A stretch of DNA of 64,000 nt, from the NCBI RefSeq assembly GCF_002196705.1, contig NZ_NADJ01000040.1, forward strand, positions 186,001 to 250,000, given 5' to 3'. This stretch comes from Desulfosporosinus sp. FKB (lineage in GTDB: Bacteria > Bacillota > Desulfitobacteriia > Desulfitobacteriales > Desulfitobacteriaceae). Under the pieces are notes generated by a model. That model was not told where the DNA came from. It saw only the letters and a program-made list of their open reading frames with translations, and did no database searches. Below are positions 12,378-28,589 of the stretch, piece by piece; the first letter of the stretch is position 1, and each line of letters begins with the position of its first letter. A program made the position numbers and the translations under genes.

Positions 12378-13424
12378 ATGATTACACTCAGTGTTTGCAT
12401 GATCGTAAAGAATGAAGAGCAGCTAATTGCCAGGTGCCTTAATTGCATAAATGATATCGCCGACGAAATTGTTATTATTGATACAGGATCAGTCGATAAC
12501 ACTAAAGAAATTGCCCGCCAGTATACATCTAAGATTTATGATTTTGAGTGGATCGACGACTTTTCTGCAGCTAGAAACTTTTCTTTCTCCAAAGCCACCA
12601 TGGATTATATTTACGCAGCCGATGCCGATGAACTGATCGACGAGAAAAACAGAGAAAAGTTTAAGCGCTTAAAGTCCACCCTTGATAAAGACGTAGAAAT
12701 TGTAGAGATGAAATACGGCAATCAGTTAGAGAAAGGCAGCACCTATAATTTTGATGTAGAATATCGGCCAAAACTATTTAAGCGGGTTAGATCCTTTAAG
12801 TGGATCGACCCCATTCATGAAATAGTAGATTGTCGCTTAAACTCAATGAAATCCGACATTCTTATTACGCATAAACCTCTAACCAGCCATGCCTCACGTG
12901 ACCTTTCACATCTCCAGAACCTCACCGCTAAAAATACCGTCTTAAATTCAAGATTACATATGATGTACGCTCGGGAATTACTTATCGCCGGCACCGAGGA
13001 AGATTTCTATAACGCCTTTGAGTATTTCAACAGATCTTTACCAACTATGAATAAGGATGATATTCGACTGTCCCACTGCGTTTTAGCTCGGTACTTCAAT
13101 CTAAAATCAGATAGCTATAATCTCTTTAAAATAGCAGCTAAAAACATTCAAGGAGCTGCCAGTGCCGAGATCTGCTGTGAATTAGGCAGCTATTATATGA
13201 AAGAAAAGGACTATAATGAGGCTGTCTACTGGTACTATACAGCGGCAACAGCTGCATCAGCAGACTTGTCCATAAATTACGTCCAATTTATACCCAATTT
13301 GCAATTGTGTCGTTGTTTTATTGAACTAGGTGATCTTGCTGAAGCGGCGAAATATAATGATATGGCCGGCATTTTTAAGCCGGATAGCCCGGAAGTGGCC
13401 GCTAATAGGAATCTATTTAGTTAG
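12378..13424 (+). CDS. Family 2 glycosyltransferase with C-terminal TPR-like region
   Basis: The 348-residue protein begins ITLSVCMIVKNEEQLIARCL and has IVIIDTGSVDNTKEIA and ADADELI, the nucleotide-sugar and metal-binding motifs of GT2 (GT-A fold) enzymes. The last 130 residues are helical with TPR-like spacing (YYMKEKDYNEAVYWYYTAA, GDLAEAAKYNDMA). The ATG at 12378 has AAGGGG upstream. It is the only forward gene between two minus-strand flagellar blocks. A role in glycan assembly, possibly on flagellin, follows from context only; sugar donor and acceptor are unknown. Confidence 0.85.
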   Translation: MITLSVCMIVKNEEQLIARCLNCINDIADEIVIIDTGSVDNTKEIARQYTSKIYDFEWIDDFSAARNFSFSKATMDYIYAADADELIDEKNREKFKRLKSTLDKDVEIVEMKYGNQLEKGSTYNFDVEYRPKLFKRVRSFKWIDPIHEIVDCRLNSMKSDILITHKPLTSHASRDLSHLQNLTAKNTVLNSRLHMMYARELLIAGTEEDFYNAFEYFNRSLPTMNKDDIRLSHCVLARYFNLKSDSYNLFKIAAKNIQGAASAEICCELGSYYMKEKDYNEAVYWYYTAATAASADLSINYVQFIPNLQLCRCFIELGDLAEAAKYNDMAGIFKPDSPEVAANRNLFS

Positions 13425-13502: not shown

Positions 13503-14000
13503 CTATCTTTTTTTGTCAACAAATCTCGGCTCGGGGGCGTAAACTTTATGGTAAAAACGGCCCGGGTGAAGAACACTTCTAACGCGGAGAAGCTGGAGTT
13601 TTGCTCCTTCTCTGACCATTTTAGCGTTCTTTAGATATTCCTTATCCAGGTTCTGTATTTGCAGAATAAGTTCACGTATCATAGCAGATCGAGTTTTTAG
13701 GTTCTTATATAGGTCTTCGGAGATATATGATTGAATTGACTCCAGATTAAAATTTTTTTGACCGATTTTTTGGATTATTTTACTCTGAAGCAAATCAATC
13801 TCTATGTTTACTTGATCAATTTGATCGATCACACCTTGACGCTGTTCTAATATTTCTTTGGATAATTCAAGTTCATTATCCAGTGACTTTGATTCAAGTT
13901 TTTGGGTTAATTCGAGCATTTCCTTAAAATGAGCTAGGTTTATACTCGTTTTTTCGTAGATATCCTGACATTGATTACTTATACCCAAATCCATCGTCAC
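13503..14000 (-). CDS. Coiled-coil protein, possible flagellar export chaperone (FlgN/FliT-like)
   Basis: A 165-residue protein without a signal peptide or membrane segment. It is nearly all amphipathic helix up to about residue 130 (ELTQKLESKSLDNELELSKEIL and QRQGVIDQIDQVNIEIDLLQ), followed by a basic, aromatic tail (RFYHKVYAPEPRFVDKKR). The helical part resembles FlgN/FliT-type chaperones in pattern only. It is the last gene of the minus-strand glycosylation block, 25 bases after the Maf gene. The start could be codon 1 or the ATG two codons later. Function not recognised with confidence. Confidence 0.6.
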   Translation of the reverse strand: MTMDLGISNQCQDIYEKTSINLAHFKEMLELTQKLESKSLDNELELSKEILEQRQGVIDQIDQVNIEIDLLQSKIIQKIGQKNFNLESIQSYISEDLYKNLKTRSAMIRELILQIQNLDKEYLKNAKMVREGAKLQLLRVRSVLHPGRFYHKVYAPEPRFVDKKR

Positions 14001-14025: not shown

Positions 14026-15339
14026 TCATTCGAATATTTCCTCTAATTTCCTATCGATTGTCCCCTTGATTTTTGCACCTTTACTTGCATTAAAAAAGGT
14101 GATTTGAGGATTTGCTTCTATAACTCGTTCTATCCAACGTTTATAACTCAATAGACCTGAATTTGTATACAACAGATCTCCGCTAACTCCTACGACTGTT
14201 TCAGAATGCCCCTGAAGAAACGCCTCATTACTCTCCCCGTATATTTCAGTAAAAGTCTCAGTGTGGTGTTTGTTGTCAATAAACGCTAAATCTTGGCCTG
14301 TAAAGATAATTGGGTTCGCTCTGGCCATAAGGGCAATCGATAAAATTGCTGTGGATACAGACTTGCCGGTTTCAATGGTCAATTTCCCCTGAATTGTTTC
14401 ATTACAAAATATGTACTTCGGCCCCCGATAATTTGATACCGCTAAATGAGAAGCCGAACTTAAAAAGCAAAGGGGGACACTAAGATTTTCATATCCACTA
14501 AGTTGCTTTGCTACGAGATCAGATGCATCAATAACGCAAATCATGTCAGGTTTAACTCGATATTTCATGAGAGTCCTGAGGGCACTTCCTGCACAGAACA
14601 GATTATACCGGCCTCGAAACCTGGATAAACACTCAACACTTAAGTCCAGAGATGGGCCGGAAGAAGCAATAACTACTGGCTTAGCCTCAAAATTATATTT
14701 ATTAAAGAAATCATCAATGATATTGTAACCATCTGTTAGGTTAAGTTCATCATTTTCATGAAGAAGAGACCCAAAGCGTTCTATACCAATTTTACTCAAT
14801 TCAAAATCAAGTATTGCATTTTTAAAATCCTCATACTCATTTGGTAAAGCCCGCAATGAAGGTTTATATATTATAAGATCACCAACATAGCCAAGCTTTT
14901 CAGAAAACCTACATAGGAAATTATGATCATATCCCTCTATCAGTTTTACACGATGGTCATTCAATACCTCTTGTACCATGTCAAGAGTCTTAACTATTTT
15001 CAAAATGGCCTTATCTGCCTCGAATAAATACACTCTGCAATCCGAGCCGATTTTTTTTAATAATTCTTTAATATGATACCCAAAACCCAACCCGTAAACA
15101 ACAACACAATTTTTATCCTGGTATATCATTCTGTGATGATCGATAAATGCTGTGGCCTCCTTATAAGGATCATATCGGCTATGAATCAGTATATCATTAA
15201 TCGCCAAAGTGGGTTGCCCATTTTTGGTTTCGAAAATTTTTAGAACACGACCGTCATTTAGTGTAAAGACTCCATTCAAATAAAATCGCCCCCTTAGATC
15301 AAGGCCAAAGGAATTGACTTTTGAACACCACTCTGCCAC
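14026..15339 (-). CDS. Maf-type motility-associated glycosyltransferase (DUF115)
   Basis: Maf proteins transfer nonulosonic acids (pseudaminic or legionaminic) onto flagellin Ser/Thr before export. The 437-residue protein has the Maf signatures NDILIHSRYDPYKEA, VVVYGLGFGYHI, KPVVIASSGPSLD and ANPIIFTGQDLAF, the central DUF115 domain that resembles CMP-sialyl-transferases. It overlaps the preceding small helical gene by 46 bases. It is shorter than the second Maf at 22742-24613, which has an extra C-terminal helical domain. Neighbouring genes make CMP-legionaminic acid, the likely donor. Confidence 0.88.
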   Translation of the reverse strand: MAEWCSKVNSFGLDLRGRFYLNGVFTLNDGRVLKIFETKNGQPTLAINDILIHSRYDPYKEATAFIDHHRMIYQDKNCVVVYGLGFGYHIKELLKKIGSDCRVYLFEADKAILKIVKTLDMVQEVLNDHRVKLIEGYDHNFLCRFSEKLGYVGDLIIYKPSLRALPNEYEDFKNAILDFELSKIGIERFGSLLHENDELNLTDGYNIIDDFFNKYNFEAKPVVIASSGPSLDLSVECLSRFRGRYNLFCAGSALRTLMKYRVKPDMICVIDASDLVAKQLSGYENLSVPLCFLSSASHLAVSNYRGPKYIFCNETIQGKLTIETGKSVSTAILSIALMARANPIIFTGQDLAFIDNKHHTETFTEIYGESNEAFLQGHSETVVGVSGDLLYTNSGLLSYKRWIERVIEANPQITFFNASKGAKIKGTIDRKLEEIFE

Positions 15340-15650
15340 ATCTGAAGTATGGGAACAACTTCGAATTCCAACAAATCGGCAACTAACACAATGTCCTTTT
15401 TTAGCATGGCATTATTTATTTCATTTATTTTGGCTAAAATGCCTTCTGTGGTGATCTGCTCTTTTTGAACAAGGCGCGTTAGTTCTATAGCTTCAACCAA
15501 CCATAAAATCCCATCGGCAATCAAGGAAACGGATTGAAAACCTTTATATTCCTGACCACTATGGAAATATTCTGCAGCTTCAAGAGTTCCCTTTGTTAAT
15601 TTATTAAGGTATTCGTATGCTGTTCGCAATACCTCAATTTGTTTTTCCAT
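15294..15650 (-). CDS. Small helical protein paired with Maf (flagellar glycosylation)
   Basis: A 118-residue, all-helical, soluble protein of unknown family. Its C-terminal part (AMLKKDIVLVADLLEFEVVPIL) resembles the C-terminus of the 91-residue protein at 24620 (KFLETKDYVRLMDVLIFEIKPLF), and each gene lies directly before a Maf gene. That pattern suggests a partner or chaperone of Maf or flagellin. The gene runs 46 bases into maf, so the two are probably translated together. Function is inferred from position only. Confidence 0.7.
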   Translation of the reverse strand: MEKQIEVLRTAYEYLNKLTKGTLEAAEYFHSGQEYKGFQSVSLIADGILWLVEAIELTRLVQKEQITTEGILAKINEINNAMLKKDIVLVADLLEFEVVPILQMWQSGVQKSIPLALI

Positions 15651-15695
15651 TTCTTACACCCTTCTTGTTATTGAATTTTATTAATAGGATTATAT

Positions 15696-16436
15696 TTACT
15701 TTTCCGCTCTTAATAATGGACAATTGCCAATATTATTCTGTAAAATCATCAGTCGATGCTCAGCTATAGAAAAATCAAATAATGTATCTATATCAACTGA
15801 ATTTTCCCTTGGCATTATGTAGGCATATGATTTGCAATCATAAATATTTTGTGATTTTGAAAAATGCTTTACTTTTACGATGTAAAGTGCTCCATTAATC
15901 CTGTAGTATGTTGGTAAATCTTGTCTCGTTTTTGTTAGAATTTCATTACGCAGAAATCCATTTAGTGATTTACTCTTTGGTAGTGTATTGTACCATAATG
16001 GAGAATGATCAGCTTCACAAACTGAAACCACAGCATCCGCATTTTTTAACATCATGGTATTAATAGCAGCTAATATATCCTGAGATGTTCTTAGAGGCGA
16101 TGTTGGTTGTAAGATAACAAAGATGTCAAATTCTTTGCCAATAGTATGATATTGATCAAGTGCCTCTTTCACGCAATCCCAAGTCGAAGCTGTATCAGTA
16201 GCCAGCCCATTTGATCTTAAAAATGGAACATTTGCCCCATTTTGTATTGCAATATCAGCATATTTCTGTGAATCGGTGGACAGAAATATTTCATCGAAAA
16301 TGCCAGTCTCTTGGGCCGCAACAATACTATAAGCAATCAAGGGTTTCCCATTAAGAATGCGAATATTCTTGTCGGGTAAGCCTTTTGAGCCACTACGTGC
16401 AGGGATTATAGCTATTACTCTATTGTTATTGAACAT
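15696..16436 (-). CDS. legF: CMP-legionaminic acid synthase (acylneuraminate cytidylyltransferase)
   Basis: This enzyme activates a nonulosonic acid with CTP to give the CMP-sugar used by Maf. The 246-residue protein has IIPARSGSKGLPDKNIR, the CTP-binding loop of the NeuA/LegF/PseF family, plus FVILQPTSPLRTSQDI and the catalytic-type INGALYIVK segment. It follows legG by 4 bases. NeuA, LegF and PseF are hard to tell apart by eye. LegF is chosen because the neighbouring dehydratase, aminotransferase and hydrolysing epimerase fit the legionaminic route. Confidence 0.87.
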   Translation of the reverse strand: MFNNNRVIAIIPARSGSKGLPDKNIRILNGKPLIAYSIVAAQETGIFDEIFLSTDSQKYADIAIQNGANVPFLRSNGLATDTASTWDCVKEALDQYHTIGKEFDIFVILQPTSPLRTSQDILAAINTMMLKNADAVVSVCEADHSPLWYNTLPKSKSLNGFLRNEILTKTRQDLPTYYRINGALYIVKVKHFSKSQNIYDCKSYAYIMPRENSVDIDTLFDFSIAEHRLMILQNNIGNCPLLRAEK

Positions 16437-16440
16437 CGTC

Positions 16441-17610
16441 CTACCCCCTCACATCATAAAAGCTCTTTTTAAGGTTGATCTTGTCATTATCTAGAAAATC
16501 CTTAATAACTGCTATAATTTTTTGTGAAGCCTTCCCATTCCCATAGGGATTTACCTGATTAGCAATCTCGAGCAAAAAACGCTGCGACTTTGCTTTCTTA
16601 ATACTCTTGACTATAGCGTTCTTATCCGGTTTACAATTTATAACTGATTTTGCACAAATCCTACCCTTCTGCCTGTCTCCAATATTAATCGTAGGTTTCT
16701 TGAAACTTGGGGTTTCAAGAATTCCACTGGAAGAATTGCCAATTACCATTTCACAATATTTCATAGCAGAAAGGTAACGTAAAACTCCCATCGAAGTTTG
16801 AGCAATAGCATTTTTCCTTGGCTTACAGTATGCATCAATCTTTTTATTGATTGCCCGACCACTAGCATCAGCATTAGCCTTTGTAAATATGTAATTCAGC
16901 CCGTTTATCTCATCCAAAGCCAATAATAGGTCTTCAATTTGTTTTATAGCAGTATTTTTTTCTAATGTTACCGGATGAAAGGTTACAAGGGCATATGGGC
17001 TATTTAAGTCAAATCCGATGCTTCGGATCAGCTCTTCTTTTGTCATTAAGGATATGTTTTTAATATTCTCTACACCAATTGCCCCCACATTGAATACCCG
17101 ATCCGGTGCTTCCCCCATCTTAATAACACGCTGTCTATATTTTTCCGTTGATGTAAAGTGCAAATAACTCATTTTACTTATTGAGTGACGAAAAAATTCA
17201 TCAACTGCCCCTTCTGTGGTTTCCCCACCATATAGATGAGCAATTGGTATACAATCCACAGCTGCAGCTATGGCAGCAGCAAATATTTCAAATCGGTCAC
17301 CTAAAACAACCACCATATCGGGTCGAAACTGTTGAAAATACTCAGCAAACCCTATAACACCAATTCCGATAGCTCTGGAAATACCCTTATTTGAATCATC
17401 ATCATTTCGCAAAACATCAATTTTAGCATCTATAGAAAAGCCATCCGCTTCTATCTCCTTATATGTCAAACCAAAATCTTCTGATAAGTGCATACCTGTT
17501 GCCACTATTTTTAGTACAAAATCGTTAATAGCGATAACTCGCTCGATAATAGGCCTTAAAAGGCCATATTCAGCTCGCGATCCCGTGACAATACAGATTG
17601 TTTTTTTCAT
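16441..17610 (-). CDS. legG: Hydrolysing UDP-sugar 2-epimerase (NeuC/LegG type)
   Basis: It removes the nucleotide and inverts C2 to give the free mannose-configured sugar for legionaminic acid synthase. The 389-residue protein starts MKKTICIVTGSRAEYGLLRP and contains VVVLGDRFEIFAAA, HLYGGETTEGAVDEFFRHSI and IGNSSSGILETPSF, all characteristic of hydrolysing UDP-GlcNAc 2-epimerases of the NeuC/LegG group. It overlaps legI by 4 bases. In the legionaminic route the substrate is a diacetamido-trideoxy sugar carried on UDP or GDP; which one cannot be read here. Confidence 0.88.
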   Translation of the reverse strand: MKKTICIVTGSRAEYGLLRPIIERVIAINDFVLKIVATGMHLSEDFGLTYKEIEADGFSIDAKIDVLRNDDDSNKGISRAIGIGVIGFAEYFQQFRPDMVVVLGDRFEIFAAAIAAAVDCIPIAHLYGGETTEGAVDEFFRHSISKMSYLHFTSTEKYRQRVIKMGEAPDRVFNVGAIGVENIKNISLMTKEELIRSIGFDLNSPYALVTFHPVTLEKNTAIKQIEDLLLALDEINGLNYIFTKANADASGRAINKKIDAYCKPRKNAIAQTSMGVLRYLSAMKYCEMVIGNSSSGILETPSFKKPTINIGDRQKGRICAKSVINCKPDKNAIVKSIKKAKSQRFLLEIANQVNPYGNGKASQKIIAVIKDFLDNDKINLKKSFYDVRG

Positions 17611-18605
17611 AAATCAATCAACTCGTCCTCATAAAAATCTCTCTTAGCTTTCTTCCCTAAAACTTCATACCATTTTAAGGGCGAAATTCCACTTCCCGGA
17701 CGCTTAACGGTTAAATTATCCTCAGCAAAGATTTCACCTGTAAAAATATTTCGTCGGGCAACAATACTTTTCCGCGCTACTTCCTTATTAGGAGTTTCGG
17801 ATTCTGAAGGCCGTTTTATGCCATCTCCCAAAGCAACTTCTATATTTCTGATAGATTTCACCATATCTTTGAGTTCTTGAGGGTTGAGACTAGATTTATG
17901 ATCTGGTCCATCCATATTTTTATCAAGAGTAAAATGCTTTTCGATCACTTCAGCTCCTAACGCTACTGCAGCAATAGGAGCTTCAATCCCAGTGGTATGA
18001 TCTGAATAGCCGACCGCAACGCCAAAGCGTTGTTTCAAAGTTAGCATTGCCTTTATGTTGGCATCTTCAAAGGGTGTGGGGTACTGAGTATTACAGTGTA
18101 GTAAGGTTATCGTTCCAGCGCCATTTTTCCGTAGAACCTCTAAGGCAAACCCCACTTCATCCAAATCACTCATCCCAGTTGACATTATCACTGACTTGCC
18201 CATCTGTGCAATTTTTATCAGATACGGCAGGTTAGTAATCTCTCCAGATGGCACTTTGTATATAGGGATCTCTAGACCTTCTAAAAAATCTATGCTATCT
18301 AAATCAAATGGTGTAGAGAGAAACAATAGCTCTTTTTCCACACAATACTTCTTAAGTTCCTGAAAATCATTAAACGATAACTCTAATTTCTTAATCATTT
18401 CCAGCTGACTTTCATCAGACCCAGTAGATTGTTTTTGATAGTCCGCTTTACGAGCCACTTTTGACACCAGATTCTCTGCTTTAAAGGTTTGAAATTTGAC
18501 GGCATCCGCTCCAGCACTTTTTGCGGTGTCTATCAATTTTTTAGCCAGTTTTATGTCGCCGTTATGGTTTACTCCCGCCTCGGCTATAACAAAAGTCTTA
18601 GCCAT
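17607..18605 (-). CDS. legI: N,N'-diacetyllegionaminate synthase (NeuB family)
   Basis: It condenses the C6 sugar with phosphoenolpyruvate to form the nine-carbon acid. The 332-residue protein has the NeuB TIM-barrel motifs IAEAGVNHNGDIKLAK, DAVKFQTFKAENL, STPFDLDSIDFLE, VGYSDHT and EKHFTLDKNMDGPDH, followed by a C-terminal SAF (antifreeze-like) domain from about residue 275. Length matches the family. It overlaps legH by 8 bases and legG by 4, forming a tight operon. PseI and NeuB are the alternatives; the neighbours favour LegI. Confidence 0.9.
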   Translation of the reverse strand: MAKTFVIAEAGVNHNGDIKLAKKLIDTAKSAGADAVKFQTFKAENLVSKVARKADYQKQSTGSDESQLEMIKKLELSFNDFQELKKYCVEKELLFLSTPFDLDSIDFLEGLEIPIYKVPSGEITNLPYLIKIAQMGKSVIMSTGMSDLDEVGFALEVLRKNGAGTITLLHCNTQYPTPFEDANIKAMLTLKQRFGVAVGYSDHTTGIEAPIAAVALGAEVIEKHFTLDKNMDGPDHKSSLNPQELKDMVKSIRNIEVALGDGIKRPSESETPNKEVARKSIVARRNIFTGEIFAEDNLTVKRPGSGISPLKWYEVLGKKAKRDFYEDELIDL

Positions 18606-19242
18606 TATTTCTCACCACTTTACAAGGATTACCGAATGCAACAACCTTACTTGGCACATCGTGGATAACAACGCTTCCAGCTCCTATGATACTGTCATTT
18701 CTGATATTCACGCTTTGAATAACCGTAGCATTAGCACCGACATGTGTACGAGCACCTATTTTAACGTCTCCGCATATAACAGCACCCGGTCCAATATGGG
18801 TGAATTCTTCAATACAACAACCATGTTCTACAATAGCCCCCGTATTAATTATCGCCATATCTCCAATAGTGCTCTTTGTATTAACTACAGTGTTCTTTCC
18901 TATAAAGACACCCGAACCAATTGATACATCGCTTCCGATATTTGAAGAGATATCGATTATTGCAGGTAAAGTAAATCCTATATCCTTAAGTAGGCGAAAT
19001 AGTTTTTCTCTTAAAAAGGTATTTCCTATACTTCCAACTGTTACAAAAGCGTGTTGAATACCACTATCAAATAGTGACTTCAGTATGTTATCATTACCTA
19101 ACATCTTATAACCTAAAACCTTCTCACAGCCAACATAACGCAAATCAGTAACCCCAACGATTTCATAAATTCCATTCGAGTTGATGCTATCTATGACACT
19201 GAGTGCATGTCCACCTGCACCTACAAGAACAATTTTACTCAC
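18598..19242 (-). CDS. legH: NeuD/PglD-family sugar N-acetyltransferase (LegH-type)
   Basis: A 214-residue acetyltransferase with an N-terminal Rossmann-like half (KIVLVGAGGHALSVIDSI) and a left-handed beta-helix of hexapeptide repeats (IGSGVFIGKNTVVNTKSTIG, IGPGAVICGDVKIGARTHVG, AIINTGAIVEHGC). The conserved His in the EHGC turn is the usual catalytic base in PglD-like enzymes. It probably acetylates the 4-amino sugar made by LegC. Four bases separate it from the nucleotidyltransferase gene upstream. Confidence 0.87.
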   Translation of the reverse strand: MSKIVLVGAGGHALSVIDSINSNGIYEIVGVTDLRYVGCEKVLGYKMLGNDNILKSLFDSGIQHAFVTVGSIGNTFLREKLFRLLKDIGFTLPAIIDISSNIGSDVSIGSGVFIGKNTVVNTKSTIGDMAIINTGAIVEHGCCIEEFTHIGPGAVICGDVKIGARTHVGANATVIQSVNIRNDSIIGAGSVVIHDVPSKVVAFGNPCKVVRNNG

Positions 19243-19246
19243 GCTT

Positions 19247-20302
19247 TTACACCTCTAATTCTTTCCTCATCTCCTCCAACGTTTCAAACTGTCCCATATC
19301 GAGCCAGCATTTCTCACTAACTGGGAAAACCCCAATTTTTCGGCCAAGACCTTTTTGCTGCTCAATTATGTCAGGAAACCCAATATCTTTATCGTTTTCA
19401 AGCTTATCTACAACTTCGGGTTCTACAACATAAAAACCGGTATTGGTTAAAAACGAATATTCCGGTTTTTCTAACATTGTATCGATTTCACCGTTGGTGT
19501 TGAGATTTATTATTCCATATGGAATAGAGAAATGTTTATATGCTGCTACGATTGTAATTATGTTTCCATTTTGCTTATGATAATCATATATTTCCTTATA
19601 ATTGGCTCTGATTATGACATCACAATTTGTCAAGAAAAAGGATGTTTTCATCTTTCCTTTAAGTAGACTAAGTCCGCCTCCTGTGCCTAAGGGTCTATCT
19701 TCATCATGAAATTCTAATTTATATACTTTCTCAATTTCACTAAAATAAGCCTTAATCATATTTTTTTTATGATTAACAATCAGATGGAACTCGTTGCATT
19801 CAAACTCCATAAAACGATTAATTATATGTTCAGTTATAGGTAATTCGCCAATAGGAATGAGTGGCTTTGGTAATATTTTTGTATACGGGTATAGTCTTGT
19901 CCCCAATCCGCCTGCCATTATTACAACGGGTGCACCGACAGAATGATTGCGCCCAATTTCATAATCGTTTAGAAAAACAATGGACTGTATTTCTAGCCTT
20001 TCATTCACAACTGGAAGCGATAAAATTGACCATTTCTTCATATATTCTCGATAATTATCTTTATCTTTTTCATGTATATACCGCGGATTATAGTTGGCGA
20101 TGTCTTTAACTTTGTCCTCTAATTTCCCTCCGCGTAGTAAATGCCTTCTAACGTCACCATCAGTAATTATTGCTTTTAATATATTGTTTTTTACAACCAG
20201 CAATATTTGCCTAGCTGTTACATCGATTTGTTTCATTGCTTCCCGAACACTTCGTTCTTCATGAATAAGCAGTGTTTCTATATCCAAAATTCCCACCCCC
20301 AT
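19247..20302 (-). CDS. ptmE: Sugar-1-phosphate nucleotidyltransferase with N-terminal CBS pair (PtmE-like)
   Basis: The 351-residue protein has two CBS motifs (about residues 5-115) followed by a nucleotidyltransferase domain with APVVIMAGGLGTRLYPYTK at about 122, the KPLIP motif, LTNCDVI and WLDMGQFETLEE. The CBS + NTP_transferase layout is that of PtmE, the glucosamine-1-phosphate guanylyltransferase opening the GDP-linked legionaminic route in Campylobacter. Presence here suggests a GDP-linked route, an inference from architecture. A 114-base spacer separates it from legC. Confidence 0.8.
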   Translation of the reverse strand: MGVGILDIETLLIHEERSVREAMKQIDVTARQILLVVKNNILKAIITDGDVRRHLLRGGKLEDKVKDIANYNPRYIHEKDKDNYREYMKKWSILSLPVVNERLEIQSIVFLNDYEIGRNHSVGAPVVIMAGGLGTRLYPYTKILPKPLIPIGELPITEHIINRFMEFECNEFHLIVNHKKNMIKAYFSEIEKVYKLEFHDEDRPLGTGGGLSLLKGKMKTSFFLTNCDVIIRANYKEIYDYHKQNGNIITIVAAYKHFSIPYGIINLNTNGEIDTMLEKPEYSFLTNTGFYVVEPEVVDKLENDKDIGFPDIIEQQKGLGRKIGVFPVSEKCWLDMGQFETLEEMRKELEV

Positions 20303-20416
20303 CTAAAAAATTGTGCTGCTTTTTTATCACTCATCCAAACCTTCAAAGTAGACAATTTACTACCGGTGTCTACAAGTTTGGAAATCCATATTTTCAGGGT
20401 GGTAACGAGACCAAGT

Positions 20417-21586
20417 TTAACCTATCGCCACTCCACTTGGAATATTGATAAGGCGGTGTTCTATACTCTCTGCAACAGTTAAATCCATTTTGGGACACTC
20501 GCCAAACATTGGCAATTTACTCATAAGCGTCCATACCGGTCTCGTCATTATGCCCAAGTCATTGGTTTCGGACAAAATTGGGTCGCGTAACTCAGCGCTC
20601 TCCTCGTCTAACAGCAACGCATTCAACCAATAGTTACTTTGGGCAAAGCTTGGTTCCCCAAAAAATTTTACATGGTCCATGCCTTGAAAGACCGCCCGAT
20701 AATTTTCAGCTAACGCTCGCTTTATTTTAAGAAAGCTGGGCAATTGTTCTAATTGAGCACATCCTAATGCAGCATTAATATTGGGCATCCGATAATTATA
20801 GCCTATCTGATCATGATTAAATGCCCATTTGTGCGGTACTTTGGCAGTCGTTGTTAAGTGTTTGGCTAATTTTCCCAGACTTTCATCGTTAGTTAAAATG
20901 GCCCCGCCGCCACCTGTAGTAATAACTTTATTACCATTAAAGCTTAATGCTGCCAGTTTACCAAAATTACCTGTATGGCGACCCTTATAATATGATCCTA
21001 GTGATTCAGCAGCGTCCTCAATTAGAGCTAACTTATACTCTTGACATAGCTCGACCAGTGGATCAAGGTCAACAGGATGGCCAAAGGTATGCATAGGCAC
21101 TACAGCCTTGATCTTCCTGCCTGTCTGTCTGTTATAACACCCATCCTGACGTATTTCAGCAATGTCTTCCAAATAACCTCTTAGTTTGTAAGGATCTAAC
21201 CCTAAAGTATTAAAGTCACTATCCGCCATGTGGGGAATAGCTCCGCAATAGCATACGGCATTCGCGGTGGCAATAAAGGTTAACGCAGGGATGATCACTT
21301 CGTCACCATTTTCTACACCTGCTAATTTGAGACATATATGTAAAGCTGCAGTACCGTTGGCTACAGCAACCACATACTTTACGCCTGTAAATTCGGCTAA
21401 TTGGGATTCAAACCTATCGACAAATTTACCGACTGACGATACCCAACCAGTATCTAAGCACTCCTTAACATAATCCCATTCATTACCCTCAAACGTTGGT
21501 TCGTGAAGGGCGACCGAACCCCTTTCGGGTAATATTACTTGCCGGAGCGCCTTGACAATGTTTAGTACTCTAGTATCTTCAATCAT
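20417..21586 (-). CDS. legC: PLP-dependent sugar 4-aminotransferase (LegC type)
   Basis: It adds the 4-amino group to the keto sugar made by LegB. The 389-residue DegT/DnrJ/EryC1-family protein has GTAALHICLKLAGV, the PLP-contacting DAAESLGSYYKGR, and the Schiff-base lysine K220 in SFNGNKVITTGGGGA, followed by GYNYRMPNINAALG. The start overlaps the legB stop by 4 bases. LegC rather than PseC is suggested by the long N-terminal extension before LHEPTFEGNEWDYV and by the neighbours. Confidence 0.88.
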   Translation of the reverse strand: MIEDTRVLNIVKALRQVILPERGSVALHEPTFEGNEWDYVKECLDTGWVSSVGKFVDRFESQLAEFTGVKYVVAVANGTAALHICLKLAGVENGDEVIIPALTFIATANAVCYCGAIPHMADSDFNTLGLDPYKLRGYLEDIAEIRQDGCYNRQTGRKIKAVVPMHTFGHPVDLDPLVELCQEYKLALIEDAAESLGSYYKGRHTGNFGKLAALSFNGNKVITTGGGGAILTNDESLGKLAKHLTTTAKVPHKWAFNHDQIGYNYRMPNINAALGCAQLEQLPSFLKIKRALAENYRAVFQGMDHVKFFGEPSFAQSNYWLNALLLDEESAELRDPILSETNDLGIMTRPVWTLMSKLPMFGECPKMDLTVAESIEHRLINIPSGVAIG

Positions 21587-22593
21587 ATGTTATACCTATT
21601 GGCCTTATAGCCTTGTAAATTTTCCGAATTAGTAAACCATTTGATGGTCTCGGATAAACCCTTTTTAAACCCTTCACGTCCTCCATAGACAGGTTGCCAT
21701 CCTAAGATCTCCTTGGCTTTTGTATTATCAGCCCAAAGCCTTTCGACCTCACTCTTTTCTGGACGAAGTCGGACCTCTTCAGTTTCAATATCGATTTTAG
21801 CCCCCATGATTTCTGCGATAAACTCTACAGTCTTTCCAATCGATATTTCGAAATTACTTCCAATATTTATCACTTTACCTATCGATTGTTCAACCTCTGC
21901 TATCGACATGAAAGCACGCACAGTATCTTTAATATAATTAAAATCGCGAGTTGGATGTAAAGAACCTAATTTGATCTGCCTATGCCCATTGGCGATTTGA
22001 GTAATAATAGTAGGAATAACAGCTCTTGCTGATTGACGTGGCCCATAGGTGTTAAACGGCCTAATAATTGCTACCGGTGTATTAAAAGATGTATAAAAAG
22101 ACATGGCAATCTGATCTGCTCCAATTTTAGAGGCCGAATACGGCGATTGGCCTTGTAATGGGTGTTCCTCGGTTATAGGTACGAACTTAGCGGTGCCATA
22201 TACCTCACTTGTCGAGGTATGTACCACTTTCCCTACTCCCAACTCCCTAGCCGCTTGCACAACATTCAGAGTTCCTTTAATATTGGTATCAACATATGTA
22301 TCCGGGGAATGATAAGAATATGGAATAGCTATTAAGGCCGCCAAATGTAATACAATATCGCACCCCTTCATGGCTTCCCTAACTCCATGTGGATCACGTA
22401 TATCCCCTGTGAAAATATCTAAACTCTTACGAATGTCGGCAGGAGATTGATCCAACCATCCCCACGAATTAAATGAATTGTATAAAACAAAAGCGCGGAC
22501 ATCATACCCTGACTTCACGAGTTCCTCAGTTAAATGTGAGCCAATAAAACCATCTGCGCCTGTAACAAGTATTTTACTATTTTTAAGTCCCAT
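21583..22593 (-). CDS. legB: NAD-dependent nucleotide-sugar 4,6-dehydratase (LegB type)
   Basis: First committed step of legionaminic acid synthesis: it forms a 4-keto-6-deoxy nucleotide sugar. The 336-residue extended SDR has the NAD motif TGADGFIG (11-18), HTSTSEVYG, and the catalytic pair Y152/K156 (YSASK), plus RPFNTYGPRQS. The ATG at 22593 has AAGGGGG upstream. A promoter-like sequence lies in the 148-base gap before it, so legB-to-legF may be its own transcription unit. Confidence 0.88.
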   Translation of the reverse strand: MGLKNSKILVTGADGFIGSHLTEELVKSGYDVRAFVLYNSFNSWGWLDQSPADIRKSLDIFTGDIRDPHGVREAMKGCDIVLHLAALIAIPYSYHSPDTYVDTNIKGTLNVVQAARELGVGKVVHTSTSEVYGTAKFVPITEEHPLQGQSPYSASKIGADQIAMSFYTSFNTPVAIIRPFNTYGPRQSARAVIPTIITQIANGHRQIKLGSLHPTRDFNYIKDTVRAFMSIAEVEQSIGKVINIGSNFEISIGKTVEFIAEIMGAKIDIETEEVRLRPEKSEVERLWADNTKAKEILGWQPVYGGREGFKKGLSETIKWFTNSENLQGYKANRYNI

Positions 22594-22677
22594 TTATTGA
22601 CCCCCTTCGCAATAGAATAATGACTTAAGTTCTGTCCTAGCTTACGGAATAGACAATGAGCCGTTACAGGGTCATAT

Positions 22678-22706
22678 ATAATTATTTTGATATTTAATGT
22701 ATGCAA
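22678..22706 (-). promoter_or_regulatory. Possible sigma-A-like promoter for the legionaminic acid operon
   Basis: On the minus strand TTGCAT (22706-22701) and AATTAT (22683-22678) are spaced by 17 bases, about 85 bases before legB and after the end of the second maf gene. Match to -35/-10 is moderate in AT-rich DNA, so this is tentative. Confidence 0.35.
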
Positions 22707-22741
22707 AATTCGAAGGCGCCCATTTAATAAACGTCTTTATC

Positions 22742-24613
22742 TCAGATTAATGATTCCGACTCTAGATTCAGTTTTTCAACTGCATCCTCGAGAATCCTTC
22801 TAAGTTTTCCCAAGAACAAACACATATCTAGAAACATATCATGCAATATTTTGGCTCTATTTATTATTATCTTTTCCGGGTTTTTTTCATTCCCATCTGT
22901 GTTTAAATTAATATAATCTCCCATCATTCTAATATACTCAGGTCTGAAAAGAGAAAATATCCAGTTATCTGCCATAATATTGTGAGCTATTTCGTACATT
23001 TTGTCTAAATATCGTTTTTTGAACTCTAAAGGAATATTAAAGTCGTGGACATAATTATACAAATCCGATGCTCTAGTATAAACCAGTTCGGCTATGTCCA
23101 GCTTCTTAATGCGTGCCATAAATGATTTCCGAATCTCTTCAATTCCATCTTCGTAAACTATATCCCGATCTACAGTAGCAAGCCAATCCACAAAAGAATC
23201 TTTCTTAGGTGATTGAACTCCTACGTATTTCTCCAAGGCTTCCTGCAACGTCAATTGGATAGTCCCTTTAATTTTAACCCCGCCCTCAGTGGCATTGATG
23301 ACTAAAGACGGAAAACGCTCTAAATTTATTTCATACCAATCTCTGAACATTTTCCAAGTTATATTTGAAGGGACTTTTTCTCCATAATAGCCCTCTAAAT
23401 AGATTATCTTAGCTTCAGTCTCTAGATTTACTTTAACTTTGTCGTAGACACTTCCTGAACTATGAGTTCGCCCTTCTGGGCTAAACGCTAAATCCTGACC
23501 TATCAGAATAATAGCCGGGGCGCCAATTTGGTTTGCAAAATTATAGGCAAAATGAGTTACGGACAACCCCATTGACAAGGTGCAGTTACCCATATCCTGA
23601 GCTAATTCGTATTCAAAATATTCTCCTCCTCCAAAGCAAAACAAATGATGCTTAAACAAACTTGCACTACGCGAATCGACAACGGGATTAGCGACAAAGA
23701 CAATAGATTCGGGAATGGGTTCATCTCGCTTATAATGTTGCTCCGGAATAATCGGAGCTCTATCTATACTAAAAGTAGCATCCGGTATAATCCCATAATC
23801 CAATAATTTATTAAAAACGGTATTAACACAGAAAATCGTCACCCGATCTTGCCATTCCTTAAGTACCGCAATATTCTTAGTCAGCGACGGCCCTGCCAAA
23901 ACAATCACCACAGGTTTATGCCACGTATTAGTAATCTGATAAACAGACGGTGTCTTAGCCAGATAAGGAATATGCTTTACGAAGTTAGTTAAGCCTTGAA
24001 CAGACCAGCCTATATCTATCCCATAACCATGGCGATGATACTGAAGCACACCAAGTACTGAACTTCGCATTTCTTGTATAACGGAATATTCGGTGCGATA
24101 TTTCTGAGCGAAATACAGGAAACCAATTCTTTGAAGTTTAAGCATGACTTCTCCCATAACAAAAAGGCCATCTAAAATCACCCGGATTTCTGACATTTTT
24201 CCAAAAGCCAAGACAACCCGACCGGTTGCTAATATTTCTTCAAAATCAATCACATGCATGGCCGCCCTCACGACATCCCAATCGGACTCTAAAACAAAAA
24301 TCAGACTTGAGGGCGGTGTTCGCTCTAACAGCTCAATTAAATGATATCCCAAACCTAGGCCAAAAAGAAAAATGGTCGAATAGGAGGCAACATCTTCTCC
24401 AACGATCAACCGAGAAGCCTCATCCAAAGGGTCATAAGCACTATGCAGGAGAAATTCTTGCCCCTCAATCTGTTTTGTCGCGGTATAGTATCCTGTCTTT
24501 CCTGTAAAAAGACTGACCGAGGAAGATTCCAGCGGTTGGTTTAAGACCTGTTCTTCGAATCCTTGGGTCATAAGAAAAGCTAAATTCTTTTCAAAAAAAG
24601 TCAAATTAATCAT
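22742..24613 (-). CDS. Maf-type motility-associated glycosyltransferase (DUF115), long form
   Basis: The second Maf in the window, 623 residues. It has the same signature order as the short one: LHSAYDPLDEASRLI, IFLFGLGLGYHLIELL, KPVVIVLAGPSL and APAIILIGQDLAF near residue 400, then about 200 extra residues, largely helical, ending DMCLFLGKLRRILEDAVEKL. It likely transfers a nonulosonic acid to flagellin. It lies just downstream of fliS and its paired small protein, and upstream of the leg genes. The two copies differ greatly in sequence and may act on different sites or sugars. Confidence 0.88.
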   Translation of the reverse strand: MINLTFFEKNLAFLMTQGFEEQVLNQPLESSSVSLFTGKTGYYTATKQIEGQEFLLHSAYDPLDEASRLIVGEDVASYSTIFLFGLGLGYHLIELLERTPPSSLIFVLESDWDVVRAAMHVIDFEEILATGRVVLAFGKMSEIRVILDGLFVMGEVMLKLQRIGFLYFAQKYRTEYSVIQEMRSSVLGVLQYHRHGYGIDIGWSVQGLTNFVKHIPYLAKTPSVYQITNTWHKPVVIVLAGPSLTKNIAVLKEWQDRVTIFCVNTVFNKLLDYGIIPDATFSIDRAPIIPEQHYKRDEPIPESIVFVANPVVDSRSASLFKHHLFCFGGGEYFEYELAQDMGNCTLSMGLSVTHFAYNFANQIGAPAIILIGQDLAFSPEGRTHSSGSVYDKVKVNLETEAKIIYLEGYYGEKVPSNITWKMFRDWYEINLERFPSLVINATEGGVKIKGTIQLTLQEALEKYVGVQSPKKDSFVDWLATVDRDIVYEDGIEEIRKSFMARIKKLDIAELVYTRASDLYNYVHDFNIPLEFKKRYLDKMYEIAHNIMADNWIFSLFRPEYIRMMGDYINLNTDGNEKNPEKIIINRAKILHDMFLDMCLFLGKLRRILEDAVEKLNLESESLI

Positions 24614-24619
24614 CCCCGT

Positions 24620-24895
24620 TCAGTCTTTAAACAAAGGTTTTATTTCAAAGATAAGTACATCCATGAGCCGAACATAATCTTTAGTTTCCAGAAACTTCAA
24701 CGCCTGTAATAGTAATTGCTGAAACGTCTCTTGTACAAGAGCAGGCATCTCCTCTACTAGACTTCCCATTTTTTGCAAAACAGGATCAAGCTCTTTGAGA
24801 GCCTGACTATCCTCATTGCGGATAAATAAGTTATGAACATAATCTAGGGTAAGAATCAATTCTTCTTTAAGATCTGAATGGTTAGTAGTCTGCAT
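24620..24895 (-). CDS. Small helical protein paired with Maf, next to fliS
   Basis: A 91-residue soluble helical protein of unrecognised family. The C-terminal half (LQALKFLETKDYVRLMDVLIFEIKPL) resembles that of the 118-residue protein at 15294-15650. It overlaps the fliS end by 14 bases and stops 6 bases before the long maf. It sits in the slot where a FliT-like chaperone would be expected after fliS, so a chaperone-like role for flagellin glycosylation is plausible but not shown. Confidence 0.7.
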   Translation of the reverse strand: MQTTNHSDLKEELILTLDYVHNLFIRNEDSQALKELDPVLQKMGSLVEEMPALVQETFQQLLLQALKFLETKDYVRLMDVLIFEIKPLFKD

Positions 24896-25316
24896 TTTCT
24901 CTTTCCCCAGTCTGCGTATGGATATGTTCTCGATTAACTATCTTGATGGCCTCAACCCAAGTCTCCCGGAAAGTTCGCAGAAAATCCTCGACTGGCTGAA
25001 GACGATCTATGCTCTTTTCGACATTAGCCATGAGCACTTCCTTTTGATAGAATTCATAGAGTTTCCTCAAATTATACGCAACTTCTCCTTGGTTCATATC
25101 CAGCGTCATGTTTAGTTCCATAAATATGTCTTGAAGTTTTCCAAGCCACTTATTCGCTGCTTCAAAATCATCTTGTTCCATCGAAGCGCGTGCTTGATTA
25201 AGGAAGCGAATCGCTCCATCATATAACATTAATAATAATTTTTCCGGTGAGGCTGTGGCTACTGAAGTTTGTCTATATGCGCTATAGGGATTGTTTTTGG
25301 TTGTTGTATTAGGCAC
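24882..25316 (-). CDS. fliS: FliS, flagellin export chaperone
   Basis: FliS binds the C-terminus of flagellin and prevents early polymerisation. The 144-residue helical protein begins NPYSAYRQTSVATASPEKLL and has LLMLYDGAIRFLNQAR, both hallmarks of the family. It follows fliD by 47 bases and overlaps the next small gene. The extended charged tail (HTQTGERENADY) is somewhat longer than usual. Confidence 0.95.
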   Translation of the reverse strand: MPNTTTKNNPYSAYRQTSVATASPEKLLLMLYDGAIRFLNQARASMEQDDFEAANKWLGKLQDIFMELNMTLDMNQGEVAYNLRKLYEFYQKEVLMANVEKSIDRLQPVEDFLRTFRETWVEAIKIVNREHIHTQTGERENADY

Positions 25317-25363: not shown

Positions 25364-26860
25364 TTAGGTCTTCGAACTTGATGAACTTGACGAACTTGAC
25401 GAACCGGACATCGCATTGACCTGGCTTGTTAACCAAGTCCCTTGCGCATTTAGACCAGACAAGACAGTCTCCAAGTTAGCAAACTTTGCATTCAACATGG
25501 TTTCATATTCTGTAGCCTGCTCTTCAAAATTGCTAATTTGATCCTCTACATCTTTAATTTGTCTGGTATAACTATCATCTATTTGAGATAAAGTTCCGCC
25601 ATACATAATGACCGGATTGAGATAAGCATGAAGGGTATTCCCCATTCCCTGATATACATTGTTAACCGTGTCGTTTTGCGGAGTAACCCCATTATAAGAA
25701 GCGCTAAACAGATTGGCGACACTTTGTGGATTATTCGCAAAAGCCTCCGTGAATTTCGTCGTATCAAAGGTCAGAGAAGCATCTTCCCCAAAATTGTCAG
25801 CCGATGTTGAAATACCCACATCACTTAAAATGCTATAGGGCGACGTAGGATTATCAAAAGTTCCTCCCATCATCCCCCTTAGTCGGGATTGGATACCCTG
25901 AAGCTGGGCATCCCCAAATAAATCCCCCGACGTTTTCGTTGTGGTATCATAACTAAGTTCTGAAGCAATGAAACTTTGAACCGAATTATATTGATCCACA
26001 AAGGCCTGAACCGCTTTCTGAGCTACAGAAGGATCCGCCGCCACCGTAACAGTAGAGGTCGAATTATTACCAGCAACTAAGTTTAAGGTTACACCTTGTA
26101 TTGCGGTTGTGACAGTATTCGATGCGCTTGTAATACTGACGCCATTAACCGAAAAGCTAGCATCCAAGGCTTGTTGGGATATCCCTCCACTTCCTGCAGT
26201 CCCATCAAAAGCGCCCGGGTTTGCACCTATTCCCAAGGCCGTTAGTGTCCCATTCGGATCGGCAAATGTAATAGCGTTAGCTTGGCCAGTCTTATTGCTA
26301 GTGATCGAAAGGCGGTAATTACTACTATCCACTTGAATAAGGGATGCTGTAACTCCTGCTTGAGCACGATTAATTGAATTAGCAATATCAGATAACGTAG
26401 GTGATGATCCCGAAGAACTTTTCACAGTAACGTTTGTTCCATTAATATTGAAATCCCAGTTCGAAGTACTGTTTCCTGAGTTGTAACTGTAAGTGGGCAT
26501 ACTGGCAGGGAACGTTGTATCACTGGTTTCCTTACTAACGACGACTTCAGCAGTGGCAGTATTCCCCACAATGATCGAATAATTACCCGCCAAAGCCCCG
26601 CTCCCTCCGGTTGCCGTTACACTGTTTGTATTACTGGAAGCAGCGGTGGTAGCCGTCCAAGTATCTGAAGATTGCAGGGCCGTGATCGTTGCATCTAAAG
26701 CGGATAAACGAGTGTTCACATCCTGCCAGGCAGATTGCTGAGTTTGCAGAGTACTTTCTTGGGTCTGCATTTGAGTTTCCGGAAGCTTATAAGCATTAAC
26801 CATTGAAGTGACAATACCAGAAAAGTCATATCCCGACAATCCTGTTAAAGCGCTTGACAT
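25364..26860 (-). CDS. fliD: FliD, flagellar filament cap (hook-associated protein 2)
   Basis: FliD caps the filament and folds incoming flagellin. The 498-residue protein starts SSALTGLSGYDFSGIVTSM with the N-terminal FliD domain, a Ser/Thr/Gly-rich beta middle (D2/D3) and a helical C-terminal domain (RQIKDVEDQISNFEEQATEYETML). It ends in a run of serines (SGSSSSSSSSSSKT), a low-complexity tail unusual in position but harmless to the reading frame. Follows flaG by 14 bases. Confidence 0.95.
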   Translation of the reverse strand: MSSALTGLSGYDFSGIVTSMVNAYKLPETQMQTQESTLQTQQSAWQDVNTRLSALDATITALQSSDTWTATTAASSNTNSVTATGGSGALAGNYSIIVGNTATAEVVVSKETSDTTFPASMPTYSYNSGNSTSNWDFNINGTNVTVKSSSGSSPTLSDIANSINRAQAGVTASLIQVDSSNYRLSITSNKTGQANAITFADPNGTLTALGIGANPGAFDGTAGSGGISQQALDASFSVNGVSITSASNTVTTAIQGVTLNLVAGNNSTSTVTVAADPSVAQKAVQAFVDQYNSVQSFIASELSYDTTTKTSGDLFGDAQLQGIQSRLRGMMGGTFDNPTSPYSILSDVGISTSADNFGEDASLTFDTTKFTEAFANNPQSVANLFSASYNGVTPQNDTVNNVYQGMGNTLHAYLNPVIMYGGTLSQIDDSYTRQIKDVEDQISNFEEQATEYETMLNAKFANLETVLSGLNAQGTWLTSQVNAMSGSSSSSSSSSSKT

Positions 26861-26874
26861 AAGTTTCCTCCTTC

Positions 26875-27243
26875 CTACGAATGTTTATCAAGGAGTAACC
26901 CGGACATATTGCTGAATGAATTTAACAAATCAAAGATACGCTTGGGGGGAATCTCATTAAGGACTTCACCAGTTTTGCTATCCACGATCTTTACCATCAC
27001 CCGATGGGTTTTATCATCGACGGCAAATTTCATGTTCTTTTCAATAATTCCCATCAATCGATTGAGCTTTTCCGTCGCCTTTTCAATTTCCTCTCGAGGA
27101 ATTTCTTCACGGGCCGACGGGGTCTCTTGTTTACGATCGACGATGGGAACTAATACTTCTTGATTCATTTCAGACTTCTGTCCAGGAAACGCGTCTATCG
27201 GTGGTACCGTTACTCCGATATTCGATTGAATTGGATTAACCAC
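26875..27243 (-). CDS. flaG: FlaG family protein
   Basis: FlaG-like proteins sit between flagellin and fliD and affect filament length. The conserved C-terminal block (MKFAVDDKTHRVMVKIVDSK, then GEVLNEIPPKRIFDLLNSF) is clear; the N-terminus is variable. I chose the GTG at 27243 because GGGAGG lies 7 bases upstream. The longer reading from 27258 would include the ribosome site. A terminator separates it from the flagellin gene, so it needs read-through or its own promoter. Confidence 0.9.
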   Translation of the reverse strand: MVNPIQSNIGVTVPPIDAFPGQKSEMNQEVLVPIVDRKQETPSAREEIPREEIEKATEKLNRLMGIIEKNMKFAVDDKTHRVMVKIVDSKTGEVLNEIPPKRIFDLLNSFSNMSGLLLDKHS

Positions 27244-27282
27244 GTTCGTTCCTCCCACTCAAGCACATGGGCTGAATTCTCA

Positions 27283-27327
27283 ATTAATAAAAGGAGAGCC
27301 GTCCGGCTGACCGCCGACCGGCTCTCT
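27283..27327 (-). terminator. Strong Rho-independent terminator after flagellin
   Basis: On the minus strand, arms of 13 bases (27325-27313 and 27307-27295) pair with one mismatch around a 5-base loop and are followed by CTCCTTTTATTAA. The GC-rich stem lies 26 bases after the flagellin stop and before flaG, as expected for a very abundant transcript. Confidence 0.88.
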
Positions 27328-27352
27328 AGTCTAAGATAAGTTTTAAAAAGCA

Positions 27353-28180
27353 TTAACCCAACAGTTTAAGAATCGCTTGAGGAGCTTGGTTTGCTTGAGC
27401 TAGCATGGCAACCCCTGCCTGACTCAGAACTTGATTTTGGGTGAATTTAGACATCTCAGAAGCCATATCCACATTAGTTATTTGAGCTTCAGCAGCTGTC
27501 ATATTTTGTGAGGCTGTGGTCAGGTTGGAAATCGTGTGGGTGAGCCGATTTTGTAAAGCACCCAACTTCGCTCGAGCTGAAGAGACCGAGTCAATTGCAT
27601 TACTAATTTTTCCGATCGCAGCAGTTGCAGCTGTTACTGTACCAACAGATAAAGTAGCAGTACCTACTGTAAGTGCAGAAGCACTCATAGCACTGATTGA
27701 GAGCGAAATAGTTTGGTTTGCCTCCGACCCAATTTGGAATTTTATACCCTTTGCGCCCGACAAACTTCCATCGAGTAAGTTTTTAGTATTGAATTGGGTT
27801 GCGGTCGCAATCCTACTAATTTCTTTTTGCAGAGCATTTACTTCAAGTTGGATTTGCTTGCGGTCAGCAGTTGTGTTCGTACCATTGGCAGACTGTACAG
27901 CAAGTTCTCTCATCCGTTGAAGAATCGATTGGGTTTGACCCATTGCACCTTCAGCCGTTTGGATAAGGGAAATGCCATCCTGTGCATTCCTATTTGCTTG
28001 ATCCAAGCCGTTGATTTGCGCTGTCATCTTTTGAGAGATTGCTAACCCGGCAGCATCATCTGCAGCTGTGTTAATCCGATAACCTGAGGATAACTTTGCC
28101 AAAGAACTTTGAATATTATTCTGAGTGCTGTTTAAATTGTTTTGAGCAATTAAACTGGATATGTTGGTATTAATAATCAT
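27353..28180 (-). CDS. fliC: Flagellin (short form)
   Basis: Main filament protein. From the ATG at 28180 (GGAGGGA 6 bases upstream) it is 275 residues: the N-terminal D0/D1 ([39 protein letters not shown]), a very short Ala/Thr/Val-rich centre and the C-terminal D1/D0 ([19 protein letters not shown], ending [11 protein letters not shown]). Ser/Thr in the middle are candidate glycosylation sites for the nearby Maf proteins. It is the only full flagellin in the window and has its own sigma-D-like promoter and terminator. Confidence 0.97.
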
Positions 28181-28589
28181 ATTTGTTCCCTCCATGAATC
28201 TTATTTTCCCACATCCGTGTGAGAATTTTGCCTATCCGCTTCTTTGTCGACATAAGAAGTAGCTTACATATTATTTATCGGATAATCGTCTTTCTTTCTA
28301 AAGGGCAAAAATTATTAATATATAGCAATTATAATGCAAATCCTCTATATTTCTTTCTTATTCTGCCAATATTAATCCTCTAGTTTCCTCATGCCTTTTT
28401 TTCTTGAGCATAAGGATAGACAGGGCACATCCTCGCCCAATATTCTTCTCATCGGGTCTGAAGATATTTTAGTTTACACTGGTCTTGCCCTATAACACTA
28501 CAACCTTACAGCAAAAAATCGAATTCAATCCGGGCGAATTCCTAAAGAAATCTCTTCTCATACATATCACAGCAAGAATTAGAATCATT
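28181..28589. other. Flagellin leader and csrA-flagellin spacer
   Basis: About 400 bases with no gene. From the csrA side: a weak hairpin followed by ATTTTTT on the minus strand near 28515-28545 (gaattc pairs), possibly the csrA terminator; then AT-rich DNA; then the sigma-D-like promoter at 28275-28300 and a leader of about 90 bases. The leader contains several GGA triplets on the transcript strand, the core of CsrA binding sites. Confidence 0.55.
28275..28300 (-). promoter_or_regulatory. fliC: Sigma-D (sigma-28)-like promoter for flagellin
   Basis: On the minus strand TCCGATAA (28282-28275) closely matches the motility -10 consensus GCCGATAA. TAGA (28300-28297) lies 14 bases upstream, close to the usual TAAA at 15. 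It is about 95 bases before the flagellin ATG. The long leader could carry CsrA sites, since GGA occurs in the ribosome-binding region. Confidence 0.65.

Follow-up and report, generated by a model that had tools for sequence, protein, structure and literature searches.

Which function is fulfilled by two small hypothetical proteins that are each encoded directly ahead of a Maf glycosyltransferase in a flagellin locus of Desulfosporosinus sp. FKB? The question arises from the window, i.e., the whole stretch of 64,000 nucleotides (nt) analysed here (contig NZ_NADJ01000040.1, positions 186,001 to 250,000), in which the first-pass annotation had noticed two parallel modules of a small helical protein and a Maf and had suggested an undescribed partner or chaperone family for flagellin glycosylation. 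The two proteins, named here sP1 and sP2, are very likely GlfM-type acceptor adaptors, matched to GlfM by description, and by analogy they most likely dock flagellin onto their Maf before FliS. This reading is carried by homology, gene neighbourhood, the predicted fold of sP1 and a conserved aspartate. The gene pairing is real and the family probably not new: GlfM, described in 2024 by Unay et al. and recognised in Clostridium, as told in the accessible text of PMC13317340, fits the family, so that "undescribed" is not supported, and a partner role in Maf-dependent flagellin glycosylation is supported as likely. In this way two hypothetical genes of a Desulfosporosinus-like genome become testable glycosylation adaptors.

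Gene Order of the Two Modules

The first module consists of sP1 (15294..15650, minus strand), a four-helix, GlfM-type protein of 118 amino acids (aa) in which the aspartates D86 and D92 are present, and of its partner, the short Maf of 437 aa (14026..15339, minus strand; PF01973, expectation value (E) 3.1e-36). The start codon of the short Maf is uncertain, its open reading frame (ORF) overlapping sP1 by 46 nt, and an alignment of the two window Mafs shows that it is devoid of the C-terminal part of the long one. The second module includes sP2 (24620..24895, minus strand), a short GlfM-type protein of 91 aa, and, after a gap of 6 nt, the long Maf of 623 aa with its C-terminal extension (22742..24613, minus strand; PF01973, E 1e-34; PF20157 (Maf_flag10_N), E 5.1e-10). 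The end of the gene for the flagellin export chaperone FliS (24882..25316, minus strand; PF02561, E 3.9e-40) overlaps sP2 by 14 nt. The order noticed in the first-pass annotation, a small protein directly upstream of maf at two sites and one of the two right after fliS, was recovered in full, and the two Mafs are the only PF01973 matches at E<=0.001 in the 5.1 Mb genome.

sP1 and sP2 as Members of One Family

The direct comparison of sP1 and sP2 by BLASTP was marginal (E 0.005 over 19 residues), and a first scan of the genome contigs with sP1 alone as the query gave no match; profile-profile comparison linked them with a probability of 96.3% and E 1.7e-9 (8 and 4 sequences). With a profile containing neither Desulfosporosinus nor sP2-type rows, sP1 (4.9e-29) and sP2 (7.6e-6) were the top two of the 154 window ORFs, the third-ranked one having E 0.063, and a 24-row profile with the same exclusions, run over the whole genome to E<=10, returned the sP1 and sP2 sites only, with sP2 weak (E 0.007). 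Pair comparisons and profile searches together indicate that the resemblance is more than chance. The sequence link expected from a common C-terminal pattern is therefore confirmed; as to the pattern itself, the segments KKDIVLVADLLEFEVVPIL and TKDYVRLMDVLIFEIKPLF are clearly alike, but the proposed motif fits neither letter for letter. No Pfam model matched more than 2 of 43 family members and no NCBIfam model more than one of the 43 (E<=0.1); DUF8042, a Pfam name considered for the family, gave nothing in a literature search, was not among the families listed by hmmscan and was discarded.

The shortness of sP2, its position beside the long Maf and its weak whole-genome match could indicate that it is not a functional GlfM and is instead a shortened paralogue or a protein with another role in the position that fliT often occupies; this proposal, which concerns sP2 only and is compatible with the adaptor role of sP1, is considered unlikely, since sP2 keeps both aspartates, as sP1 does, together with the helix-4 motif, and since comparable forms recur in other genera. 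In particular, members of 73-111 aa adjoining Mafs are found in Roseburia, Lachnospira, Eubacterium and Thermotalea records among others, and the Thermotalea locus (L134) repeats both modules, with a 90-aa member and a 648-aa Maf followed by a 117-aa member and a 463-aa Maf.

Association of the Family with Maf

The distribution of the family was followed in a phylum sample of 398 genomes with an alignment of 19 members as the query, members from 5 of these genomes being included in the alignment and therefore matched by construction. A strong Maf, defined as PF01973 at E<=4.5e-10, was present in 91 genomes (97 over the tool's own cut-off; 144 at E<=0.001), and the family in 94 at E<=0.01 and in 87 at E<=1e-5 (92 matches). 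At the stricter threshold both occur together in 78 genomes (Fisher p 4e-58, relatedness ignored); at E<=0.01, 79 of the 91 strong-Maf genomes also have a GlfM-type protein, several forms of which lie outside the Pfam and NCBIfam models used. A strong Maf domain lies within 2 kb of 77 of the 92 matches, on the same strand in 77/77 cases and downstream in 63, and the frequent occurrence away from maf that would have spoken against a partnership was not seen. Within the class of the window's genome (82 genomes, its own included), single-sequence searches matched sP1 in 15 genomes and sP2 in 5, one of the latter (G058) in a phosphate-transport type locus, probably by chance.

For the other 15 matches, no strong Maf lies at a distance of up to 2 kb, which in several cases is explained by contig ends, masking or a weak Maf: G107 and G169 have as neighbour a Maf that is truncated or scores weakly, the masked ORF next to the member in G291 looks by eye like the start of a Maf, and the G209 member is divided between two contig ends (L069, L210), one half being beside a Maf, with transposase-like ORFs nearby. 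The Maf ORF lies a few kb away in G202 and elsewhere in the same genome for G143, G331 and the second copy of G296. There is no strong Maf in G431 (two matches), G391, G195, G269, G370 and G357, the last having one weak match.

The same association was found at the level of single loci. Among 80 named loci fetched by Maf alignment, some of which belong to the same species as genomes of the samples (e.g., L113/L114, L126, L163), the family is present in 48, and it also occurs in records titled Planctomycetota, Elusimicrobiota, Wallbacteria and Gammaproteobacteria. The nearest named loci to the window Mafs are those of Desulfosporosinus acididurans, whose Mafs are 71% and 54% identical over the best segments. 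Across 140 inspected loci a Maf adjoins 96 of 111 entries on the same strand (<=300 nt downstream or <=600 nt upstream), and many gaps between member and Maf are from -4 to +30 nt; one of the 111 entries, L136:5435-5692, is not in the member set because it comprises the first helix only and is perhaps a broken copy. In 21 loci with two Mafs, one short (380-510 aa) and one long (560-900 aa), the member is directly upstream of the short one in 19 (L072 and L163 being one species), the exceptions being L063, with the member directly downstream of the short Maf, and L114, with the member apart. In L103 and L106, the Maf ORFs that directly follow the member are 1420 and 1423 aa long.

Gaps near zero point to coupled translation and, with the preference for the shorter Maf in two-Maf loci, could also be explained by a protein that stabilises or folds Maf, or is a Maf subunit, without touching flagellin. 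This explanation is very improbable, because members persist in genomes without strong Maf and because, according to the accessible text of PMC13317340, Maf-2 depends on GlfM, which is encoded with it, to form a ternary complex in which flagellin takes part. Maf itself was also tried as the source of the small protein, and the profile comparison with the Maf C-terminal part gave no signal.

Predicted Fold and Conserved Aspartates

The AlphaFold model of sP1 is a confident four-helix bundle (predicted local distance difference test (pLDDT) 96.1, predicted template modelling score (pTM) 0.88), with helices at residues 2-30, 34-57, 71-83 and 87-112. In structural searches with the bundle, fold-library matches were generic bundles, none at E<=0.001, and the top VIA-align Z of 14.4 at 2.1 and 3.0 Å is usual for helical models according to the tool's note; in the PDB sequence search designed bundles ranked first and the matches were at chance level, with FliS at E 0.26. 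Many members are longer than sP1, and 44 of 108 unique members have at least 165 aa. The model of one long-form relative of 196 aa (Thermincola record, L163; pLDDT 92.2) comprises strands around one helix followed by four long helices; the N-terminal domain looks like a beta-grasp in this model, and ubiquitin-like structures were only among the weak fold matches (E about 0.5).

The 108 members are those of the window, of loci L053-L192 and of three additional loci, members with masked bases being left out of the aspartate count. Position D92 (sP1 numbering; D79 in sP2) is an aspartate in 104 and D86 in 101 of them. The four departures at D92 are L174, whose gene is cut by a contig end, and L086, L088 and L104, all three from genomes without strong Maf, where the aspartate is kept in four of seven inspected members. 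The probability that all three losses fall in this set by chance is 1.8e-4 among 107 members, L174 being left out, as a post hoc estimate that ignores relatedness. Since D92 is an aspartate in all 100 intact members outside the no-Maf set and is lost in 3/7 within it, nature offers a test of the function of this residue. One of the departures, L086:6140-6880, is a long-form member, and no flagellar gene is labelled in its 12 kb stretch.

A helical bundle encoded next to fliS recalls FliS itself, and the members could be FliS-like chaperones for flagellin export or assembly, their proximity to maf merely reflecting the flagellin operon. Neighbours of the candidates do include fliS, fliD, flaG and flagellin, genomes that lack a strong Maf still have members next to fliD, flaG or flagellin, FliS structures are among the weak fold and sequence matches of the family, and the distance correlation of the family is no lower with FliD than with Maf. 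Nevertheless, this alternative has a slim chance: FliS is present in 311 of the 398 phylum genomes versus 94 for the family, which thus tracks Maf and not flagella as such, and the abutment of member and Maf is tighter than a shared operon would need. The profile comparison of the family with FliS was not significant (probability 1.0%; 14% for a reversed FliS control), so that a FliS homology seen by eye in the helix pattern was rejected, and the term chaperone, in the FliS sense, is not supported. PF02561 did not match sP1 or sP2 at E<=10. FliS chains did appear in the fold libraries, at low rank among many unrelated four-helix bundles, and none was among the best 50 VIA-align matches listed. 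Likewise, no FlgN/FliT Pfam match was obtained for sP1 or sP2, nor among the best 25 of the 36 weak families matched by 43 members. Distance matrices were also correlated to look for a direct partner; Maf did not stand out, and the approach was set aside.

Members in Genomes without a Strong Maf

Five genomes without strong Maf keep the family gene among flagellar genes. G431 has two copies after FliD; in G391 and G195 the gene adjoins FlaG, and the surrounding clusters encode GT2/TPR, GT1/methyltransferase and sulfotransferase proteins; in G269 it lies between flagellin and a GT2-TPR-GT1 protein, and G370 has it between flagellin and several consecutive YheC/D-like ATP-grasp genes (2/3 scanned). 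In the sixth, G357, no flagellar gene is labelled near the member, and in G143, whose Maf is elsewhere, a PylC-like ATP-grasp gene follows the family gene. ATP-grasp ligase genes directly after a family member were observed in two flagellar loci, L104:6475-9248 (YheC/D-like) and L206:5308-6267 (PylC-like), where flagellin ligation is possible.

A tentative extension, with a minor share of the probability, is that the family is a general flagellin-side adaptor, docking flagellin to whichever modifying enzyme is present; without Maf it would pair with TPR glycosyltransferases, some of them sulfotransferase-fused, or with ATP-grasp ligases, a Maf-specific aspartate would be free to change and the presumed beta-grasp of the long form would act as a second docking surface. 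Possibly new are the long form with its extra N-terminal domain, the paired two-module layout, also seen in Thermotalea, and the members in the five genomes without strong Maf; the papers listed in a literature search on GlfM included no work on such variants, most subscription papers, including the original one, being outside its reach.

Neighbouring Genes and Proposed Mechanism

On the minus strand of the window the order is flagellin, FlaG, FliD, FliS, sP2, long Maf, sugar genes, sP1, short Maf and a 165-aa helical protein. The flagellin, FlaG and FliD genes upstream of fliS occupy 25364..28195 (minus strand; PF07195/PF02465, PF03646, PF00669/PF00700). Between the modules (15696..22593, minus strand) lie the donor-sugar genes, i.e., those for a cytidylyltransferase, a NeuC-type epimerase, a NeuB-type synthase, a NeuD-type acetyltransferase, a nucleotidyltransferase, LegC and LegB. 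NCBIfam models TIGR03568, TIGR03569, TIGR03570, TIGR04181 and TIGR04180 matched over cut-off, and the LegB, LegC, NeuC-, NeuB- and NeuD-type matches point to a donor that is probably of the legionaminic-acid type. The 165-aa protein after the short Maf (13503..14000, minus strand) is FliT/FlgN-like by position and look only and had no significant family match; its profile found one relative, a 166-aa protein after FliS in L094. Beside module 1, on the opposite strand (12378-13424, plus), a 348-aa GT2 glycosyltransferase with TPR-like repeats is a possible further flagellin glycosyltransferase. Promoter and terminator scans gave scores at shuffle level.

In the mechanism proposed for the adaptor role, each helper would form a small bundle of helices, be translated from an operon shared with its own Maf and bind Maf and flagellin together in a ternary complex. 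In the cytoplasm, Maf would then attach a nonulosonic acid, probably of the legionaminic-acid type, to selected residues of flagellin, and the modified flagellin would pass to FliS for export. The order helper then FliS is drawn from the proposal for Aeromonas, in which, according to the accessible text of PMC4065374, flagellin is bound first by Maf1 and then by FlaJ, a chaperone of the FliS type. The pair of sP1 and the short Maf (module 1) would be of the Maf-2/GlfM type, i.e., a putative Maf-2 enzyme without its own C-terminal acceptor-binding part, and sP2 and the long Maf (module 2) would be a second pair; the pairs may differ in the sites or in the sugars that they serve.

Comparison with GlfM and Other Flagellin Glycosylation Systems

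The work of Unay, Kint and Viollier (2024, Curr Biol) reportedly presents GlfM as the glycosylation factor for Maf, a four-helix bundle with an invariant aspartate that is said to occur in Gram-positive and Gram-negative bacteria. The window proteins resemble this description in being small and co-encoded with Maf in both copies, in the four helices of the sP1 model and in the near-invariant D92 and D86 of the family, either of which may correspond to the GlfM aspartate. They differ in that the window has two copies, serving a short and a long Maf, and in that many relatives have about 190-230 aa with the extra domain, some of them in genomes without strong Maf.

A bridge toward characterised GlfM, and only that, is given by three relatives in the class of the L161 genome, whose record is titled Gammaproteobacteria. 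In this class the family matched in 18 of 274 genomes, G464 included; besides G464's own, 3 of the 17 matches are in short frames and 14 in long frames. All three short-frame matches abut a short Maf of 427-435 aa, and G592, one of the three, also carries an 827-aa long Maf next to flagellin, flaG, fliD and fliS; no Maf was found within the 1.5 kb flanks checked around the 14 long-frame matches. A short Maf with a member and a long Maf by the flagellin genes is the layout expected for Maf-1 plus Maf-2/GlfM, and the window proteins were therefore filed as GlfM-type. PF20157 is a poor marker for short Mafs, since it was found in 2 of the same 274 genomes, neither with a family match. The accessible text of PMC13317340 also reports a GlfM orthologue by one C. 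butyricum Maf.

Different observations weigh against the adaptor role or its identification with GlfM. The family is missing from 32 of the 80 named Maf loci; 20 of these have no detected flagellar gene on the fetched stretch, but the other 12, which include Desulfosporosinus lacus (L128), Paradesulfitobacterium, two Lysinibacillus, Schinkia and two Paenibacillus, do have such genes in the vicinity. Twelve strong-Maf genomes gave no family match, a better profile finding the gene beside Maf in two of them (G319, G432), and in the genus of the window sP1 was matched (E<=0.01, single-sequence search) in 6 of 29 genomes, three weakly. Conversely, seven of the inspected members come from genomes, six in all, that have no strong Maf. 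The correlation of family distances given FliW is 0.45 for Maf, 0.66 for FliD, 0.43 for FlaG and 0.44 for FliS, with differing locus numbers. The identity of the family with GlfM is deduced from the description of GlfM, its four-helix and aspartate features included. Moreover, the Maf next to sP2 is a long one, for which the Maf-1 rule predicts no need of a helper. Finally, in the accessible text of PMC11339370, a C. botulinum Maf modifies flagellin in E. coli with only those two co-expressed, so that a helper is not always needed.

Maf-1 type enzymes, according to the accessible text of PMC13317340, have a C-terminal TPR part and bind the acceptor in the enzyme itself; the window long Maf belongs to the same catalytic family and presumably has a flagellin acceptor, but it still has a putative helper upstream. 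FliS, which acts on flagellin, is likewise a small helical bundle of the same gene cluster; it differs from the family in showing no significant profile link to it and in being a separate gene that adjoins sP2. The FlmG of Caulobacter, as described in the accessible text of PMC7591256, is a flagellin-binding TPR domain fused to a GT-B enzyme. Its likeness to the window modules is that the acceptor specificity of a flagellin glycosyltransferase comes from a part that binds flagellin; in FlmG this part is a fused TPR domain, whereas in the window it would be a separate small protein.

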